Source: Bifidobacterium merycicum DSM 6492 (GTDB taxonomy: Bacteria > Actinomycetota > Actinomycetes > Actinomycetales > Bifidobacteriaceae). From it: a stretch of DNA of 64,000 nt. A program made the position numbers and the translations under genes. Of the stretch, positions 17,924-25,823 are shown one piece after another. The DNA is taken from NCBI RefSeq assembly GCF_900129045.1, contig NZ_FQTX01000001.1:248001-312000 (forward strand). Reading direction: 5' to 3'. Position 1 is the first letter of the stretch, and every line of letters starts with the position of its first letter. The notes under the pieces are model-generated. The model saw nothing but the letters and a program-made list of their open reading frames with translations. It made no database searches and was not told the origin of the DNA.

Positions 17924-18172
17924 ATCTACTCCTTGGCTCATTGATTCCTGATCGATGGTTTCCGTGAATCCGGACGGCTCGCGTGGAACAGTCGGCCACA
18001 CCATCACACCATCGTCCCATCGTAGTCCACGTGCGCCCCGCGCACACCGTGTTTCCTATGGTGCCACATGTGCGACGCAACCTGGGAGCGGGGCGGGCGG
18101 GGCGTGCCAGGACGGGATATCCGGAACGCTGCGAACCGTACATCGGGGCGTGCAATAGAATATGAGAGGTTT

Positions 18173-18214
18173 GTACGTATCGGTTGTGCAAGTTGTACAT
18201 ATCCGTACGTATCG
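18173..18214 (+). promoter_or_regulatory. Three GTACGTATC-type iterations upstream of folC
   Basis: GTACGTATCG (18173-18182), GTACATATCC (18195-18204) and GTACGTATCG (18205-18214) end just before the folC ribosome binding site. A possible -10 (TAGAAT) lies at 18156-18161, which would place the iterations in the leader. Candidate operator; the binding protein is unknown. Confidence 0.4.
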
Positions 18215-18224
18215 AGAGGAAGTC

Positions 18225-19736
18225 ATGTCATTCGAGCATCCGAACAGAAACGGTGAATCCATCCACGACGTGGAGCGCGACATCATGAGCCGCCCGCCGG
18301 AACACAACACCACCAATCTTGACCTTGACCGCATGAATCTCATGCTGGACGTGCTGGGCCATCCGGAGGAATCGTTCCGCGTGATCCATATCACCGGCAC
18401 CAACGGTAAGGGATCCACCGCACGCATGGCAGAAGCCATCTGCCGCGCCTACGGTCTGCGCACCGGCCTGTACACGTCGCCGCACCTGGAGAAGGTGAAC
18501 GAGCGCATCGCCATTGACGGCCAGGAGCTCAGCGATGACGACTTCATCGATGCATGGGATCAGATCAAGGATTACGTCGATCTGGTGGACGCCAAAATGG
18601 AGGAGCAAGGCAAGCCGCGCATGAGCTTCTTCGAAGTGCTCACTGCCATGGCGATCTGGAAGTTCGCGGACGCGCCGGTGGACGTCGCCGTCGTCGAGGT
18701 CGGTATGGGCGGCGCATGGGACGCCACGAACGTGCTGAACGCGGACGCGGCGATTATCGGGCCAATCGACATGGACCACATGAAGTGGTTGGGCGACACC
18801 GTCGAGGACATCGCACAGGAGAAAGTCGGCATCATCAAGCCCGGCTGCACCGCGGTCATCGGCCGTCAACCCCACGAGGAGGCGGTCATGCCGATCATTG
18901 AGGAAGCCGCGGAACGCAACCACGCCAAGCTGGTACGCGACGGCTACGAGATGGAGGTCGTCGAACGCATGCCCGCGGTCGGCGGTCAGGTCGCCACCCT
19001 GTCCACGCCGCTCGGCACCTACACCGAAGTGCCCATCGCCAAGTTCGGCGAGCATCAGGCGCATAACGCACTCGCTGCGCTCGCCGCCTGTGAGGCCGTG
19101 ATCCCCACGTCCGGCGCGTTGGACGGCGATCTGGTGGCCGAGGCATTGAGCGGCGTGAAGATCCCGGGGCGCATCGAGCAGATCCGCACCTCGCCGACCA
19201 TCATCCTCGACGGCGGGCATAACATCAACGCCGCCGAATCGCTGCGTGCGGCGCTTGAGGAGAACTACAACTTCGAGCAGCTGGTCGGCGTGGTGGCCAT
19301 GATGGCCGACAAGCAGGTCGAACAGTATCTGGGCATTTTGGAGCCGGTGCTCAGCCAGATCGTGGTGACCGAGAACTCGTGGCGCGACCGCGTCATGCCC
19401 GCCGATGAACTGGAGAAAATCGCCATCGACGTGTTCGGCGCCGATCGCGTGATCAAGGAACCGAACCTGCCCGACGCCATCCAGACCGCCGTCAACCTGG
19501 TGGACGCCGACGATGAGCTGGGCGTGGGCTACGGCCACGGCGTGCTCATCTGCGGCAGCTTCGTCACCGCGGGTGATGCGCGAGCCATGCTGAAGGAGCA
19601 CGCGAGCCCGGTCATGCAGAAGGCCATGAGCATCCATCAGGCCACCGTGGAGCCGGATGATCGCGGGGATGCCGAGGCTGGAGCCGGTGATACTGAAGCC
19701 GGCGATGCCGGGAACGCCGAAACGGCCGAGGAGTGA
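18225..19736 (+). CDS. folC: Folylpolyglutamate synthase / dihydrofolate synthase
   Basis: 503 residues. A Mur-ligase-family enzyme that adds glutamate to folates (and, in bifunctional forms, makes dihydrofolate from dihydropteroate). The P-loop GTNGKGST at about residue 50, the TSPHLEKVNERI motif and the GMGGAWDATN segment are all family features. The ATG at 18225 follows GAGAGGAAG. The C-terminal tail (about 475-503) is unusually acidic and Ala/Gly-rich (EAGAGDTEAGDAGNAE) and looks like disordered extension. Convergent with the D-Asp cluster. Confidence 0.92.
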   Translation: MSFEHPNRNGESIHDVERDIMSRPPEHNTTNLDLDRMNLMLDVLGHPEESFRVIHITGTNGKGSTARMAEAICRAYGLRTGLYTSPHLEKVNERIAIDGQELSDDDFIDAWDQIKDYVDLVDAKMEEQGKPRMSFFEVLTAMAIWKFADAPVDVAVVEVGMGGAWDATNVLNADAAIIGPIDMDHMKWLGDTVEDIAQEKVGIIKPGCTAVIGRQPHEEAVMPIIEEAAERNHAKLVRDGYEMEVVERMPAVGGQVATLSTPLGTYTEVPIAKFGEHQAHNALAALAACEAVIPTSGALDGDLVAEALSGVKIPGRIEQIRTSPTIILDGGHNINAAESLRAALEENYNFEQLVGVVAMMADKQVEQYLGILEPVLSQIVVTENSWRDRVMPADELEKIAIDVFGADRVIKEPNLPDAIQTAVNLVDADDELGVGYGHGVLICGSFVTAGDARAMLKEHASPVMQKAMSIHQATVEPDDRGDAEAGAGDTEAGDAGNAETAEE

Positions 19737-19843: not shown

Positions 19844-20569
19844 TCAGCCGCGCAACGCCTCCGCCCGTTCCACGGTCACATCCACCAGCACGGCCTGCGC
19901 ATCGATGACGGGCAGCTGCGGGAGTGGGAAGGCCTCGTTGAGCACACTGAGCTCGGTGCAGCCGAGGATCAGCGCATCGCACGCGCACGGACCGGCCGGG
20001 TCGAGCATGTCGCGGAGCACGGACTCGTAGCGTGCGAGATTCAGCTCGCCGGTGCCCTTCACATCGTCATAGATGAGCGACGTGATACGCTGCTGCAGCG
20101 CATCATCCGGTTCCACGAACGTGTATCCGGCCTCCTCCACGGCATGCTTGTACACGCCCGAAGCGCGCGAACCCACCGTGCCGAGGAATCCGACGCGCGT
20201 GGCGGAACCCGCCGGGTACGATTTCGACAGTCGCTTGACCGCCTCGCGCGGCATGTGCAGGATCGGCACATCGGTGAGCGCCTGGAAACGGTCATAGAAA
20301 TAATGGGCGGTGTTGCAGGTCAACACGATGAAGCTCGCGCCCATCGCCGTGGCCTTTTCGATATCGTCCGCGAGTACGGGGAACGGGTTGTCATCCGATT
20401 CCCCGATGATGAACGCGGTACGATCGGGCACGGACGCATCGTTGAACACGACGTAATCCAGATACTCCTGATCGCTGTGCGCGTGCGTGGCCGCGTCGAC
20501 CAGACGGACGTAGCTTTCCGTGGCCAACGTGCCCATGCCGCCGAGTACGGCGAAGAACGGTCGTTTCAT
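19844..20569 (-). CDS. Aspartate/glutamate racemase family protein
   Basis: 241 residues. The two catalytic cysteines of this cofactor-free family are in LTCNTAHYF (about residue 83) and LGCTELS (about 195). The N-terminal LGGMGTLATESY is closer to aspartate racemases than to the MurI glutamate racemase. The ATG at 20569 overlaps the stop codon of the upstream ATP-grasp gene (ATGA), so the two are translationally coupled. With a D-aspartate ligase-like gene directly upstream, making D-Asp for the peptidoglycan cross-bridge is the simplest reading (inference from context). Confidence 0.85.
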   Translation of the reverse strand: MKRPFFAVLGGMGTLATESYVRLVDAATHAHSDQEYLDYVVFNDASVPDRTAFIIGESDDNPFPVLADDIEKATAMGASFIVLTCNTAHYFYDRFQALTDVPILHMPREAVKRLSKSYPAGSATRVGFLGTVGSRASGVYKHAVEEAGYTFVEPDDALQQRITSLIYDDVKGTGELNLARYESVLRDMLDPAGPCACDALILGCTELSVLNEAFPLPQLPVIDAQAVLVDVTVERAEALRG

Positions 20570-21810
20570 TTCAATTCGTCCTTTTTGGTGAAGTATTTGG
20601 CGTAGCTCTTCTTGTAAATGGAGAACATGTGGCGGACCATGGCCCATCGCAAGGGGTTCATGTCCTTCTTGTATTCGAGGGTGGTGCCCCAGTTCCCGGA
20701 GGCAAGCATCGCGCGCCCCGCTTCCTTATCCGGGCCTTCGGCCACATAATCCATGAAGATGGATTTCGGGATTTCAAGCCACAGCTTCGACCCGCGGCCG
20801 AACAGCGTGTCCCCGTCGAATGGGGTGTCCTCGACCAGATCGTCGACGAAGTACTTGGCCAGATTGAATCCGTTCAACGTCACGAAATAGCTGGAACGTC
20901 CCTGACGCAGATTGATCTCGAACAGCTTGTATTCGCCGTCGCGCTCATCGTATTTCATATCGAAGTTGGCGACGCCCTCATAGCCGATATCCTCAAGGAA
21001 GGCTTTGATGATGCGGAACACCTTCTCGTTGTAGTCGGGCAGGATGGCCGCATAGTTTCCGGCCGCCACGGGGGAGGGGTCCTCGAGCAGCGGATGGCCG
21101 AGGAACATCATGCGCACGCGATGATGCTGATCCACGTAGGCGTTCAGTACGCGCATGCGCGAATCGTCGCCGGGGATGAAATCCTGAATGACCATTTCGG
21201 ACGTGTAGCCCGCCGCGTAGGCACGTTTGATGATCGTCTCAAGCTTATCCGGACTGTCGAAGATGTAGGCCTTGCGGCGTCCTTCGAAATCGATGTTCAG
21301 CCATTCCACCGAATTGGCGGGCTTCATCGCAACCGGGTATGCGAATGGTAGATCCTTGTATGCACCGGCCGCGACCTCATCGGCGGTGACCGTCTTCGTC
21401 TTCGGATGCGGCAGATCGTACTGTTCGCAGATGCGGTAGAAGGTCGACTTGTACGCCAGCCTGCGGGACAGGTTGATGTCCAACGTGTTATAGACGAAAT
21501 ACCGGCGCAGGTCGTCGCCGCATTGGCTGAGCAGATTCGCATACACGTCGCCGCAGGGGATGAGCAGCAGCACACGGTCCGGGTCCTCGGCCTTCATCCT
21601 TTTGCCCAGGTCGAGCATGAAATCACGGAACGTGACGAAATTATTGAAATCGTCGACGATATGGACATTGACGATCCGGCTGAACTTCGTCGGACTGAGC
21701 TGGAAATACGCATAGGCTTCGGAGACGATGCCATACTCCTCATGGAAAGCCCTAGCCATGCCGTAGACGTTGATGTCGCTGCCTAGCAGAATCGGTTGGA
21801 ATCTTGTCAT
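20566..21810 (-). CDS. ATP-grasp ligase, D-aspartate ligase-like
   Basis: 414 residues of ATP-grasp carboxylate-amine ligase type. Visible parts are the phosphate-gripping region (FAYPVAMKPAN at about 155-165), IQDFIPGDDSRMRVLNAYV (about 214-232), and FEINLRQGRSSYF with the metal-binding Glu-x-Asn (about 315-330). The enterococcal D-aspartate ligase that adds D-Asp to the peptidoglycan Lys side chain belongs to this superfamily. Downstream coupling with an Asp racemase and upstream MurE genes support the same role here. The direct acceptor (Lys or Orn) cannot be read. No signal peptide: cytoplasmic. Confidence 0.8.
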   Translation of the reverse strand: MTRFQPILLGSDINVYGMARAFHEEYGIVSEAYAYFQLSPTKFSRIVNVHIVDDFNNFVTFRDFMLDLGKRMKAEDPDRVLLLIPCGDVYANLLSQCGDDLRRYFVYNTLDINLSRRLAYKSTFYRICEQYDLPHPKTKTVTADEVAAGAYKDLPFAYPVAMKPANSVEWLNIDFEGRRKAYIFDSPDKLETIIKRAYAAGYTSEMVIQDFIPGDDSRMRVLNAYVDQHHRVRMMFLGHPLLEDPSPVAAGNYAAILPDYNEKVFRIIKAFLEDIGYEGVANFDMKYDERDGEYKLFEINLRQGRSSYFVTLNGFNLAKYFVDDLVEDTPFDGDTLFGRGSKLWLEIPKSIFMDYVAEGPDKEAGRAMLASGNWGTTLEYKKDMNPLRWAMVRHMFSIYKKSYAKYFTKKDELK

Positions 21811-21868
21811 AAACCCTCACCTTACCGTTGTCGTGTGGTCAAGTCGTTTATTTGCCCAGCTGTTTACC

Positions 21869-23443
21869 CTACAACCCGGCCGGACGGGCATCCAGCTCGC
21901 GGCGCACGATCGTCGCGTCGCCGGGCCAGGGGACGGCCTTGCCGTTGATGATGTTGCGCCGTTCATGGCCTTTGCCGATCACCAGAACGATGTTGAACCG
22001 GTCCGCATGTTCGCGAGCCTCGCCGATCGCGGTGGTGATGGCCTGATCGCGGTCGACGATGATTTGCGTCCGCGCATCATCCGTCACATACGAGGCCATC
22101 TGTTCGCAGATCGCCTGCGGATCCTCGAAATTCGGATCGTCTGTCGTGAAGATATACGATTCCGCTTGGCCGAGCGCACCCTTGACGATGCCCTCACGCC
22201 GGTCGATGGCCTTGCCCCCGGTGGAACCGGCGACCACGGTGATATGCGGGTCGCGCTCGCCATACACGCGCACCATCTCATCCACCAGCGCCTTGGTGGA
22301 CAGGTAATTATGCGCGAAATCCACGAATACCAGCAGATTCTCGCCGCCCGTGAACCGTTCCATATGACCGGGAACCTGCACGGATTCGATGGCCTTCATG
22401 GCATCGCTGTCGAACGGTACGCCGATATTGACAGCCAGCGCGATGGCGGCCGCGGCGTTGAGGAAGTTGAATTCGCCGAGCATATCGAGGGTGAACGCGC
22501 GCGTCTCGCCATCGCAGGAGACAGTGATGCCGGTTTTCGTCCCCTCGGTGGGGGAGACGGTGAGATCGGCGGGCGTGCGCTCGCCGGCGGCTTCGTCGTG
22601 AAGCGCGAACGAGAACACCGGCACATTGTTCGCGGCGGCGTCCTCGCGCAGCAGATCGGCGTGATCGCAGTCCGCGCCGAGCACGAACCAGCGGCTGTGG
22701 GCGATGATCTGCCGCTTGCAATGCAGATAATCCTCGAACGTCGGATGTTCGATGGGACTGATGTGATCGGGGGAGATGTTGAGGAACGCCCCGGCATCGA
22801 AGGTCAGATCGTAGACGCGGTTGACCTTGTACGCCTGCGAGCTGACTTCCATGACGAAATATTCCATGCCGTTATCCACGGCTTCGCGCATCATGTGTGC
22901 CAGATCCAACGACACCGGTGTGGTGAGCTTGGAAGGGATCCAGGTGTTGCCGTCCAGGCAGCAGGCGATGGAACTGGTGATCGCGGCACGCCCGTGCGAA
23001 TACGCGTTGAGGATCGCGTGGGTGAAATAGTTGGTGGTGGTTTTGCCCTTGGTGCCGGTGATGCCCACCATCTTCAATTGCCTGTCGGGGCGCCCGTAGA
23101 ATTCAAACGACAACAGGGCCATGGCCTTCGGCGCGTCCTCGACGATGAGCCCGACCGCCGATGTACGATCCGAAAACTCGGTTTCGGATACGTAGACGGC
23201 CAAGCCCCGCTCGTCGATCCCGTCCATGAACTCGGGTTTGAACCGGCCTTTGACGAACAGCAGCGATCCGGGCGTGACCTCACGGGTGTCGTAGGTGATC
23301 GCGGGAATCGGCGTATCCGCTCCGGGAAGACCCGCCGTGTTGACGGTCCAGCGTTCGGGCGTGATGATTTCACGGAGCAGATGATGCTGCTTGAGCAGTT
23401 CGACCGCACTGGTCAGGGTGAACGATGCGTTCGTGAATGCCAT
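21869..23443 (-). CDS. murE: MurE-type UDP-MurNAc-tripeptide ligase, copy 1 (L-Lys-type motif)
   Basis: 524 residues. MurE ligases add the third residue of the peptidoglycan stem peptide with ATP. P-loop GITGTKGKTTTNYF (about residue 118), the central EVSSQAYKV and the NISPDHISPIEH segment are diagnostic. The amino-acid-selecting site reads TTDDPNFEDP; D-(D/N)-P-(N/A) is the pattern known from L-Lys-adding enzymes, unlike the DNPR of diaminopimelate-adding ones. The ATG at 23443 is taken from alignment with the paralog; its ribosome binding site is weak. It lies 59 bp downstream of copy 2. Confidence 0.88.
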   Translation of the reverse strand: MAFTNASFTLTSAVELLKQHHLLREIITPERWTVNTAGLPGADTPIPAITYDTREVTPGSLLFVKGRFKPEFMDGIDERGLAVYVSETEFSDRTSAVGLIVEDAPKAMALLSFEFYGRPDRQLKMVGITGTKGKTTTNYFTHAILNAYSHGRAAITSSIACCLDGNTWIPSKLTTPVSLDLAHMMREAVDNGMEYFVMEVSSQAYKVNRVYDLTFDAGAFLNISPDHISPIEHPTFEDYLHCKRQIIAHSRWFVLGADCDHADLLREDAAANNVPVFSFALHDEAAGERTPADLTVSPTEGTKTGITVSCDGETRAFTLDMLGEFNFLNAAAAIALAVNIGVPFDSDAMKAIESVQVPGHMERFTGGENLLVFVDFAHNYLSTKALVDEMVRVYGERDPHITVVAGSTGGKAIDRREGIVKGALGQAESYIFTTDDPNFEDPQAICEQMASYVTDDARTQIIVDRDQAITTAIGEAREHADRFNIVLVIGKGHERRNIINGKAVPWPGDATIVRRELDARPAGL

Positions 23444-23502
23444 AGGGGGAATGCTTCGACTTTCCTTCGGGAAACAGAATCCCCACCATCGTACCCCAGT
23501 GT

Positions 23503-25071
23503 CTATCGCAGCAGACGCTCCACTACACAATCATCACCTTCGTACGGCACATGCTTGTTGAGATCCTTAATCCAACGCTCGTGCCCTTTGCCGATGATTA
23601 GTACCACGTCGAGGCGGTCGGCGTCGCTGCGCGCCTTTTCCACAGCGGATTCGATGGCTTTGGTGCGGTCGATGATCGTGCTGGACTTCACCCGGTCGTT
23701 GGTGATGCAATTCGCCATATCGCGGCAGATATCCTCATACGGTTCGGTGTCGGTGTCTTCGGCGGTGAACACGAAACGCATGATGCGGTCCTGCGCGGCC
23801 TGGACGATGCCTTCGCGGCGATCAAGTGCCTTGTTGCCAGCCGAACCGGTGACCAAGGTGATGCCCGGATTCTCCTCGCCGTACCGCACGTCGACATAGT
23901 CGAGCAGTTTGACCACGGAATCGTAGTTGTGCGCGTAATCGACGATGACGACGGTGTTCGCGCCCTCGTCGTAATACTGCATCATGCGGCCGGGCACCTT
24001 GGTGTGTTCCATGGCATGCATCGCCTCGCTGTCGACGGGCACACCCGCGGCATGCGCGATCGCGACGGCCGCCAATGCGTTCCGATAGTTGAAATCGCCG
24101 TCCAAATCAAGTGTGTACTCGCCCAGATCCACGCCGTCCACACGCATATGGTAGGCGCGGTGCGTGCAGTCGACCGCCCAGGCGCAGGTGGCGGGAAGAT
24201 CCTCCAAATGCTCCGGATCGTAATGATCCTCCAAATTGTCGAATACCGAGAACTCGCTGACCGGCACGTTATGCGCGGCGGCATCCTCGCGCAACAGGTT
24301 GATATGCTTGCAGCCGGAGCCGAGCACGAGCTTGCGGCAGTTGGCGATGAGCTGGCGTTTGCAATACAGGTAATCCTCAAGCGTTGGATGCTCGATGGGA
24401 CTGATATGGTCCGGGGTGATGTTGAGGAACGCGCCCACGTCGAACGTGAACCCGTACACGCGTTGCACCTTGTATGCCTGCGAGCTGACCTCCATCACCA
24501 GGTACGTCATGCCGTTATCCACGGCTTCGCGCATCATGCGCAGCGCGTCGAACGATTCGGGCGTGGTGAGATCCGATTCGGCGTAGGCGTGGCCGTCAAG
24601 ACAGTTGTCCACGGAGGAGAACAAGGCGCAGCGCCCGCCGCTGTAAGCGTTGAGGATGGCCTGCGTGAAATAGGCCGTGGTGGTTTTGCCCTTGGTGCCG
24701 GTGATGCCCACCAGCGTGAGCTCGCGTTCCGGATGATCGTAGAATTCGGCAGCGAGCAGGCTCAGCGCCTTGCGCGCATCGTTGACGATGAGGCCGGGGC
24801 GATCGGTGCGCTCCGACAAATCGGTTTCCGCAACATAGGCGGCGAGCCCCTTCTCCGCCGTGCCGTCAAGAAATTCCGGCTTGAATCTGCCCTTGCAGAC
24901 CAGCAGCGTGCCGGGGGCGATCTCGCGTGTGTCATACGAGAGTTTTTCAAAAGGCGTGTCCGCACCATCGATACCCGAGGCGTCGAGTTGCCAGACGTCG
25001 CCATGAACCACCTCTCTCAGAAGATTATGCTGTGAGAGAAGCGATGCGGCGGAAGCCAGTGTCAGCGTCAT
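23503..25071 (-). CDS. MurE-type ligase, copy 2 (divergent specificity motif)
   Basis: 522 residues, clearly paralogous to the next gene: P-loop GITGTKGKTTTAYF, EVSSQAYKV, NITPDHISPIEH and a C-terminal GKGHERWIKD. At the position where the paralog has TTDDPNFEDP this copy reads TAEDTDTEPYED, so the usual amino-acid-selecting residues are gone. It may use another amino acid (ornithine is possible in this genus), or act on another UDP-precursor. The start at 25071 has AAAGGA upstream. First gene of a four-gene operon. Confidence 0.85.
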   Translation of the reverse strand: MTLTLASAASLLSQHNLLREVVHGDVWQLDASGIDGADTPFEKLSYDTREIAPGTLLVCKGRFKPEFLDGTAEKGLAAYVAETDLSERTDRPGLIVNDARKALSLLAAEFYDHPERELTLVGITGTKGKTTTAYFTQAILNAYSGGRCALFSSVDNCLDGHAYAESDLTTPESFDALRMMREAVDNGMTYLVMEVSSQAYKVQRVYGFTFDVGAFLNITPDHISPIEHPTLEDYLYCKRQLIANCRKLVLGSGCKHINLLREDAAAHNVPVSEFSVFDNLEDHYDPEHLEDLPATCAWAVDCTHRAYHMRVDGVDLGEYTLDLDGDFNYRNALAAVAIAHAAGVPVDSEAMHAMEHTKVPGRMMQYYDEGANTVVIVDYAHNYDSVVKLLDYVDVRYGEENPGITLVTGSAGNKALDRREGIVQAAQDRIMRFVFTAEDTDTEPYEDICRDMANCITNDRVKSSTIIDRTKAIESAVEKARSDADRLDVVLIIGKGHERWIKDLNKHVPYEGDDCVVERLLR

Positions 25072-25145: not shown

Positions 25146-25823
25146 ATGGTGTTCGTGACGAATGATGACGGCGAAACTCTGACGCAGAAGCGGGAACGCT
25201 TCGAACGGCTCGTCATGCCCGCAGTCAACGCGCTGTATCGTCAGGCGATGAAGCTGACCAATAACCCGGATGACGCGCAGGACCTGGTGCAAGACACCTT
25301 CGAACGAGGATTCAAGGCCTTCGACTCCTTCAAGCAGGGCACGAACTTCGAAGCATGGATGACCACCATCGAACGCAACGCCTACTTCAACCAATACGCC
25401 AAAGCCAAGCGCCGTCCGCAACGCGCCAACGATTCCTCCGGCGAATACGATGATTGGGATATCTACTCCGCTTCGGAACACTCCTCGGACGGGCTCAAAT
25501 CGGCCGAAGAGGAATATCTGGACGCGTTCGCGCCCGAAGAGATCATGGCCGCGCTCGCGAAGCTGTCGCCGGAACGCCGGCAGGTGTTCATCGACGCCGC
25601 GATCGACGGCAAATCATACAGTCAGGTGGCTGAGGAACAAGGGGTGAAAATCGGTACGGTGATGAGCCGTTTGAATCGTGCCCGCACCCAGCTCAAACAT
25701 GAGCTGGCAGCCTACGCGAAGGAGCGTGGGTACCTTGACCGCAAGACCGGCGGGCCGAAGGGTTCACTATGCGCAAAGACCAGTGACAATCCGCGGTCGG
25801 ACAACGATAATACGAATAAATAG
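25146..25823 (+). CDS. ECF RNA polymerase sigma factor (SigR/SigH-like)
   Basis: 225 residues. Region 2 (about 20-90) has DAQDLVQDTFERGFKAFDSF and NFEAWMTTIERNAYFN; region 4 (about 135-190) has LSPERRQVFIDAAIDGKSYSQVAEEQGVKIGTVMSRL in two helices. This is the SigR/SigH type that controls thiol-oxidative stress in actinobacteria. A Cys-rich small protein follows 14 bp downstream and is the likely anti-sigma factor. Start at 25146 with a GGGGA about 7 bases upstream. Divergent from the MurE operon. Confidence 0.9.
   Translation: MVFVTNDDGETLTQKRERFERLVMPAVNALYRQAMKLTNNPDDAQDLVQDTFERGFKAFDSFKQGTNFEAWMTTIERNAYFNQYAKAKRRPQRANDSSGEYDDWDIYSASEHSSDGLKSAEEEYLDAFAPEEIMAALAKLSPERRQVFIDAAIDGKSYSQVAEEQGVKIGTVMSRLNRARTQLKHELAAYAKERGYLDRKTGGPKGSLCAKTSDNPRSDNDNTNK

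Follow-up and report, generated by a model that had tools for sequence, protein, structure and literature searches.

A murE-murE-ligase-racemase operon of Bifidobacterium merycicum that probably builds a D-aspartate cross-bridge, in a locus with apparently exchangeable cassettes

The type of peptidoglycan cross-bridge is a character long used in the taxonomy of bifidobacteria and other actinobacteria. In Lactococcus lactis, racD and aslA are located in one operon, and the D-aspartate (D-Asp) produced by the racemase is joined to residue 3 by an ATP-grasp ligase, according to the accessible part of a review (PMC4155827). The principle of a D-Asp racemase-ligase operon is established there and is not new. 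Among the available portions of the open-licence literature, no paper found named genes for D-Asp, D-Glu or D-Ser bridges in bifidobacteria or actinobacteria, and D-aspartate ligase, peptidoglycan and Bifidobacterium occurred together only in that same review. Here a window of 64,000 nucleotides from B. merycicum DSM 6492 (the whole stretch analysed; contig NZ_FQTX01000001.1, positions 248,001 to 312,000) is described, in which two murE genes, an ATP-grasp ligase gene and an aspartate racemase gene form an operon (Table 1) that very probably builds an L-Lys(L-Orn)-D-Asp cross-bridge. The set would follow the same logic of D-Asp racemase and ATP-grasp ligase as racD-aslA of L. lactis and Aslfm of Enterococcus faecium, a likeness by description and not by sequence. 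It differs from them in being actinobacterial, in standing in an operon with the only murE genes of the genome, and in occupying a slot that holds other bridge genes in relatives. FemABX/FemX enzymes occur in that slot in relatives and share the step of adding the first bridge residue, as known for their family, but they are unrelated, aminoacyl-tRNA-dependent enzymes.

The four genes were co-directional on the minus strand (25071-19844), with intergenic gaps of 59 bp (murE1/murE2) and 58 bp (murE2/ligase) and an ATGA overlap shared by ligase and racemase. The order murE, then ligase and racemase, recurred across the family, bounded by a divergent sigma-like gene on one side and by folC on the other, so the layout is not due to chance; the coordinates and this recurrence confirmed the four-gene operon with overlapping last genes described in the initial annotation. 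Judging from spacing and conservation, the four genes were probably transcribed as a single unit. A promoter scan gave one site with 2.3 expected, and nine terminator-like sites were found against 3.9 +/- 2.0 in shuffled sequences, eight of the nine within the four genes. The same annotation regarded the grouping of all steps as unusually compact; the grouping stands, but a racemase-ligase operon was already known in Lactococcus (PMC4155827, accessible part).

In the proposed pathway, residue 3 of the stem peptide would be a diamino acid attached by MurE1 and/or MurE2. D-Asp would be formed from L-Asp by the racemase, activated with ATP by the ligase and bound to the side-chain amine of that residue; a subsequent transpeptidation would couple the bridge D-Asp to D-Ala4 of the neighbouring chain. 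In this scheme we infer the substrate, the acceptor and the division of labour between the MurE copies.

Table 1. Features of the locus, in window coordinates
Feature	Coordinates	Strand	Evidence
murE1, UDP-MurNAc-tripeptide synthetase, first gene	23503..25071	-	NF001129, TIGR01085, catalytic motifs
murE2, second MurE	21869..23443	-	NF001129, TIGR01085, MurE2 clade
ATP-grasp ligase, proposed D-aspartate ligase for side amine of residue 3	20566..21810	-	fold search, distribution
aspartate racemase, proposed D-Asp source, ATGA overlap with ligase stop	19844..20569	-	TIGR00035, 1jfl
MurE2 substrate-motif codons, Asp-Asp-Pro-Asn (DDPN)	22130..22141	-	sequence, alignment
MurE1 substrate-motif codons, Glu-Asp-Thr-Asp (EDTD)	23749..23760	-	sequence, alignment
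racemase first conserved Cys (TCNTAH)	20315..20317	-	sequence, aligned with 1jfl
racemase second conserved Cys (GCTEL)	19958..19960	-	sequence, aligned with 1jfl
sigma-factor-like gene, divergent, locus border in relatives	25146..25823	+	synteny; name by eye
folC-like gene, convergent, other locus border in relatives	18162..19736	+	synteny; name by eye

Both MurE proteins exceeded the cut-offs of NF001129 (762 bits) and TIGR01085 (257.3 bits), with 855.1 and 264.8 bits for MurE1 and 763.6 and 268.7 bits for MurE2. They were 54-55% identical to each other, the ATP loop and the other catalytic motifs were intact in both, and the genome had no further close MurE match, three additional hits having E values of 4e-4 or weaker. 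The racemase scored 215.8 bits with TIGR00035 (cut-off 93.1), its nearest solved structure was the aspartate racemase 1jfl (E 1.1e-32), and the two active-site cysteines that we take to be expected of an aspartate racemase were both aligned, in TCNTAH and GCTEL. A separate glutamate racemase (MurI) was present in the genome, and the operon racemase was therefore rejected as the supplier of wall D-Glu. Neither a FemAB nor a FemX-like match was revealed by searches of the genome for both.

The ligase was above no curated Pfam or NCBIfam cut-off, its sole Pfam match being PF15632 (20.5 bits against 29.1), and a sequence search of solved structures gave no match. An AlphaFold2 model, built from six rows with a mean predicted local distance difference test (pLDDT) score of 77.2 and with residues 304-331 and 377-384 below 50, could be superposed on 2pn1 (Z 17.5, root-mean-square deviation 3.8, 272 aligned) and on 4wd3 (Z 16.3, deviation 5.7, 305 aligned). 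Foldseek returned 413 matches to this model at E 0.001 or better, and the closest folds were carbamoyl-phosphate synthase-like, biotin carboxylase and L-amino-acid ligase structures. By its predicted fold, and not by Pfam membership, the ligase belongs to the ATP-grasp superfamily.

All 189 genomes of Bifidobacteriaceae were surveyed, and then the 161 with completeness of at least 90% and contamination of at most 5% (good quality), at E thresholds of 1e-3 for ligase and FemAB, 1e-20 for racemase and 1e-30 for FemX-like (c1) and DegT-like proteins. Positives among the 189 were 102 for ligase, 175 for MurE, 79 for racemase, 110 for FemAB, 87 for c1 and 25 for DegT-like, the last including three low-quality ligase-free genomes (G001, G002 and G012). 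Ligases close to that of the window (group A, identity of at least 63%) were found in 63 genomes, all of which carried the racemase, the partner known from L. lactis and an overlapping gene in the window, and none of which had a FemAB or c1 match or a DegT-like gene (0/63 for each). Group B (52-55%) comprised five genomes, every one with racemase, FemAB/c1 and DegT-like genes, and group C (33-39%) comprised 14, with racemase in 9, FemAB/c1 in 10 and DegT-like in 2. Among the 18 genomes of group D (28-31%) no racemase was found, and 15 carried c1, the same 15 having the DegT-like gene; two further genomes had partial ligase matches below 28%, both with a distant racemase match. The racemase never occurred without a ligase match (79/79). 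FemAB/c1 was present in 83 of the 87 ligase-free genomes, the remaining four being low-quality assemblies, and a FemAB or FemX-like enzyme in all 66 ligase-free genomes of good quality, so that every good-quality genome (161/161) had a ligase or a Fem-type match. Internal stops were seen in the ligase matches of G007, G024, G063 and G078, and an open frame of normal length spanned the gene in G024 and G063. In G185 (presumably Parascardovia denticolens; L217:6897-8834) the ligase-racemase pair lay far from the murE match, thus the pair need not stay linked to murE.

The associations were also tested with regard to kinship. On a quick folC tree of 80 genomes, those in which the folC match was long (SH-aLRT, the Shimodaira-Hasegawa-like approximate likelihood ratio test, as the sole support), group A ligase changed state at least 15 times, and the ligase has been gained or lost repeatedly in the family. 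Over nine independent pairs, group A ligase and the absence of Fem went the same way in 6.9, the opposite way in 0.0 and showed no difference in 2.1 (sign test, median p 0.016). The racemase went with group A ligase by 6.3 to 0.0 (p 0.031), and the DegT-like gene with the combination of ligase and Fem/c1 by 5.7 to 0.0 (p 0.031).

Natural deletions were found in two genomes, G131 and G147, which belonged to the indicum/coryneforme clade on the folC tree. They were 92-93% identical in DNA to G134 on both flanks of the locus, with 1.8 kb comprising ligase and racemase missing; the scars (L198:7389-7580; L200:10591-10768) kept 17 and 26 residues of the ligase start, as weak matches, and 52 and 37 residues of the racemase end. 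A FemAB match was present in both, and G134 had no FemAB match but kept ligase and racemase. The murE genes of G131 and G147 (L198:7696-9216; L200:8958-10478) were only 80-81% DNA-identical to that of G134, and murE may have changed at the same time as the D-Asp module was lost. A different ligase was found in G072 (contamination estimate 8%), which was close to the window genome in FolC (96% protein identity), the sigma-like protein (99%), MurE1 (93%), MurE2 (92%) and the racemase (97%), with a ligase only 38% identical and with c1 present. B. adolescentis had a single MurE that grouped with the catenulatum cluster and a ligase 93% identical to that of the window, so murE seems not to have accompanied ligase and racemase when these moved.

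The bridge types used for comparison were mostly presumed, after Bergey's Manual and the work of Schleifer and Kandler, as were most of the species names; literature searches for tables of bifidobacterial cross-bridges found none. The presumed bridge types fitted the cassette in all 16 species compared, pseudolongum included. Comparison across species thus supported the expectation that the operon follows the cross-bridge type, with the close ligase excluding Fem-type matches and always accompanied by the racemase. In the accessible parts of published sources, the bridge of B. breve is Lys-Gly (PMC11209152), A3 wall types are given for B. animalis subsp. lactis and B. longum (PMC8660834), and the bridge of B. 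lactis is Orn-Ser-Ala-Thr-Ala (PMC11209152), which differs from the type presumed for animalis; both versions would be Fem-type.

Matches to the ligase were also found outside the family. A scan of genome contigs by folC alignment gave at least 80 loci (at least 11 from Bifidobacterium, at least one from Aeriscardovia and at least 68 from other actinobacteria, 25 of which were used), and the 25 genomes were sorted into ornithine/lysine (Orn/Lys) and diaminopimelate (DAP) types by the type presumed for each genus. The ligase profile matched all 13 Orn/Lys-type genomes (five Cellulomonas, two Actinomyces, Actinotalea, Rarobacter, Demequina, Actinotignum, Arcanobacterium and Neoactinobaculum) at E 6e-47 or better, and none of the 12 DAP-type genomes better than E 6e-24. 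A racemase gene adjoined the ligase gene in Cellulomonas edaphi, a DegT-like gene (47% identical) stood beside it in Rarobacter (L239:7730-8851), and c1-like genes were near it in Arcanobacterium and the two Actinomyces. The 12 actinobacterial ligase loci of 14-15 kb that were read contained no murE match. As given in the accessible part of one paper, A5alpha Lys-Lys-D-Glu occurs in Varibaculum and Actinomyces neuii, and Lys-Gly-Ser-D-Asp in Dermacoccaceae (PMC6113628); these bridges would need both enzyme types.

The initial annotation derived the D-Asp bridge from racemase, ligase and both MurE proteins; comparative genomics supports the bridge, and a second MurE is not needed for it. MurE was read at the locus in 96 genomes including the window (matches longer than 350 aa). 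Two copies were found in 17, namely 14 with group A and three with group C ligases, which is 17 of the 62 ligase genomes against 0 of 34 ligase-free ones. Genome-wide, three or four MurE matches occurred in G152, G159 and G160. That one copy of the pair is redundant, decaying or regulatory, instead of being a second specificity, falls only a little short of an even chance: a single MurE stands at the locus in 79 of the 96 genomes, and in G076 (probably B. pullorum; L141:6279-7044) MurE1 has lost a large internal part, with MurE2 intact. On the other side, the catalytic motifs are intact in both copies and the pair is retained in 17 genomes. In a quick tree that warns of long branches, a single clade of 23 rows contained all 17 MurE2 (SH-aLRT 99) and another of 14 contained 14 of the 17 MurE1 (SH-aLRT 99), and the substrate motifs differ.

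The motif DNPR, which we take to mark DAP-adding MurE, was present in neither copy (EDTD in MurE1, DDPN in MurE2), although the NCBIfam name reads diaminopimelate ligase. Compared with the L-Lys-type MurE, for which we assume the consensus D(D/N)P(N/A), MurE2 fits, and MurE1 and the side-by-side arrangement of two copies differ. Among the genomes read, an Asp-first motif (DDxx) occurred in 40, of which 36 had the ligase, and 56 were Glu-first only, 26 with the ligase (Fisher p 9e-6, kinship not accounted for). By the presumed chemotypes, all five species in which every MurE read is Asp-first (indicum, coryneforme, and presumed boum, pullorum and subtile) are Lys-only, and Orn is present in 9 of 11 species that have a Glu-first MurE, breve and angulatum being the exceptions. 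MurE1 and MurE2 are perhaps an Orn/Lys specificity pair. A fixed code of EDTD for ornithine and DDPN for lysine was rejected: B. breve, with EDTV and lysine, does not fit, nor does B. angulatum, with both motifs and presumably lysine, and the pair is kept as a hypothesis for this reason.

Several observations weigh against the D-Asp bridge reading. The sequence of the ligase itself does not tell D-Asp from L-Asp or D-Glu. Group C is mixed (9/14 with racemase), and four of its genomes (G025, G081, G084 and G101), with neither racemase nor Fem-type match, escape the simple scheme. When all ligase subtypes were pooled against the absence of Fem, four pairs only were left (p 0.25), and group D against the absence of racemase gave 4 to 0 (p 0.125). 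Weaker ligase matches (E 1e-8 or better) were found in 4 of the 12 DAP-type genomes.

A ligase adding D-Glu or another acid, with the racemase serving some other purpose, is an unlikely reading of the window. Ligases of the same family lack a racemase in all 18 group D genomes, including B. thermophilum, which we take to be a D-Glu species; however, the group to which the window ligase belongs has the racemase in every genome, the racemase falls in the aspartate racemase family, and MurI is encoded separately. A role of the operon in some other wall polymer or in an unrelated D-Asp-containing small molecule, with a proximity to murE that is only historical, is most improbable: L-amino-acid (dipeptide) ligases (4wd3, 3vot) are among the ATP-grasp fold relatives, but the exclusion of Fem-type enzymes, the fact that the only MurE genes are linked to the operon, and the loss of ligase and racemase in two FemAB-carrying genomes speak against it.

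For the D-Asp operon and its counterparts, 72 loci were read for synteny, with the names sigma, folC, smc, galM and ispH assigned by eye. In most of them murE and a cassette were bracketed by the sigma-like gene and folC, and an smc-like gene frequently adjoined folC. The cassette consisted of ligase and racemase in the window, adolescentis, angulatum, dentium, indicum and coryneforme; of ligase D alone in thermophilum; of c1 in the absence of a ligase, in many cases with FemAB at another place, in longum, breve, catenulatum and pseudolongum; of c1, DegT-like, ligase B and racemase in bifidum; of c1, DegT-like and ligase D in avesanii, catulorum and probably boum; and of c1, ligase C and racemase in moraviense and G072. 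The region looks like a sigma-folC slot with modular cassettes. Two c1 proteins tested were above the cut-offs of Pfam Acetyltransf_6 and FemAB, and one compared with the NCBIfam FemX alanyltransferase model matched weakly (31.3 bits, cut-off 500).

The gene for the DegT-family pyridoxal phosphate (PLP) enzyme (L042:8553-9764, +) adjoined FemX-like and ligase genes, and was found in 5/5 genomes of group B and 15/18 of group D. The protein was above the PF01041 cut-off, its NCBIfam matches were sugar aminotransferase models only, all far below their cut-offs, and the lysine of SFG-EK was kept in 17 of 17 aligned sequences; an AlphaFold2 model from two rows (pLDDT 36) was not used. D-Ser is presumably a constituent of the bridges of bifidum and boum, and since this coincides with the DegT-like gene, the enzyme is proposed to invert serine, as a candidate maker of bridge D-Ser. 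We put forward tentatively, at clearly less than even probability, a joint proposal: that slot content spells the chemotype, with group A ligase plus racemase for D-Asp, a distant ligase alone for D-Glu, FemX-like enzymes alone for L-residues or Gly, and FemX-like enzyme, ligase and DegT-like enzyme for D-Ser-D-Asp or D-Ser-D-Glu, the PLP enzyme inverting serine; and that the MurE pair combines an Orn-accepting Glu-first copy with a Lys-only Asp-first copy.

As far as the literature was searched, three elements are new: the association of ligase and racemase with two MurE that differ in motif, a slot with swappable content and a candidate enzyme for D-Ser. The last would account for the hitherto puzzling D-Ser of these walls. 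Cross-bridge bonds are met by host muropeptide sensing, phage lysins and cell-wall antibiotics alike. The findings suggest that closely related species change their wall chemistry by swapping genes, the natural deletion being evidence for this, and if the cassette map holds, the wall type would be readable from the genome, uncultured species included.

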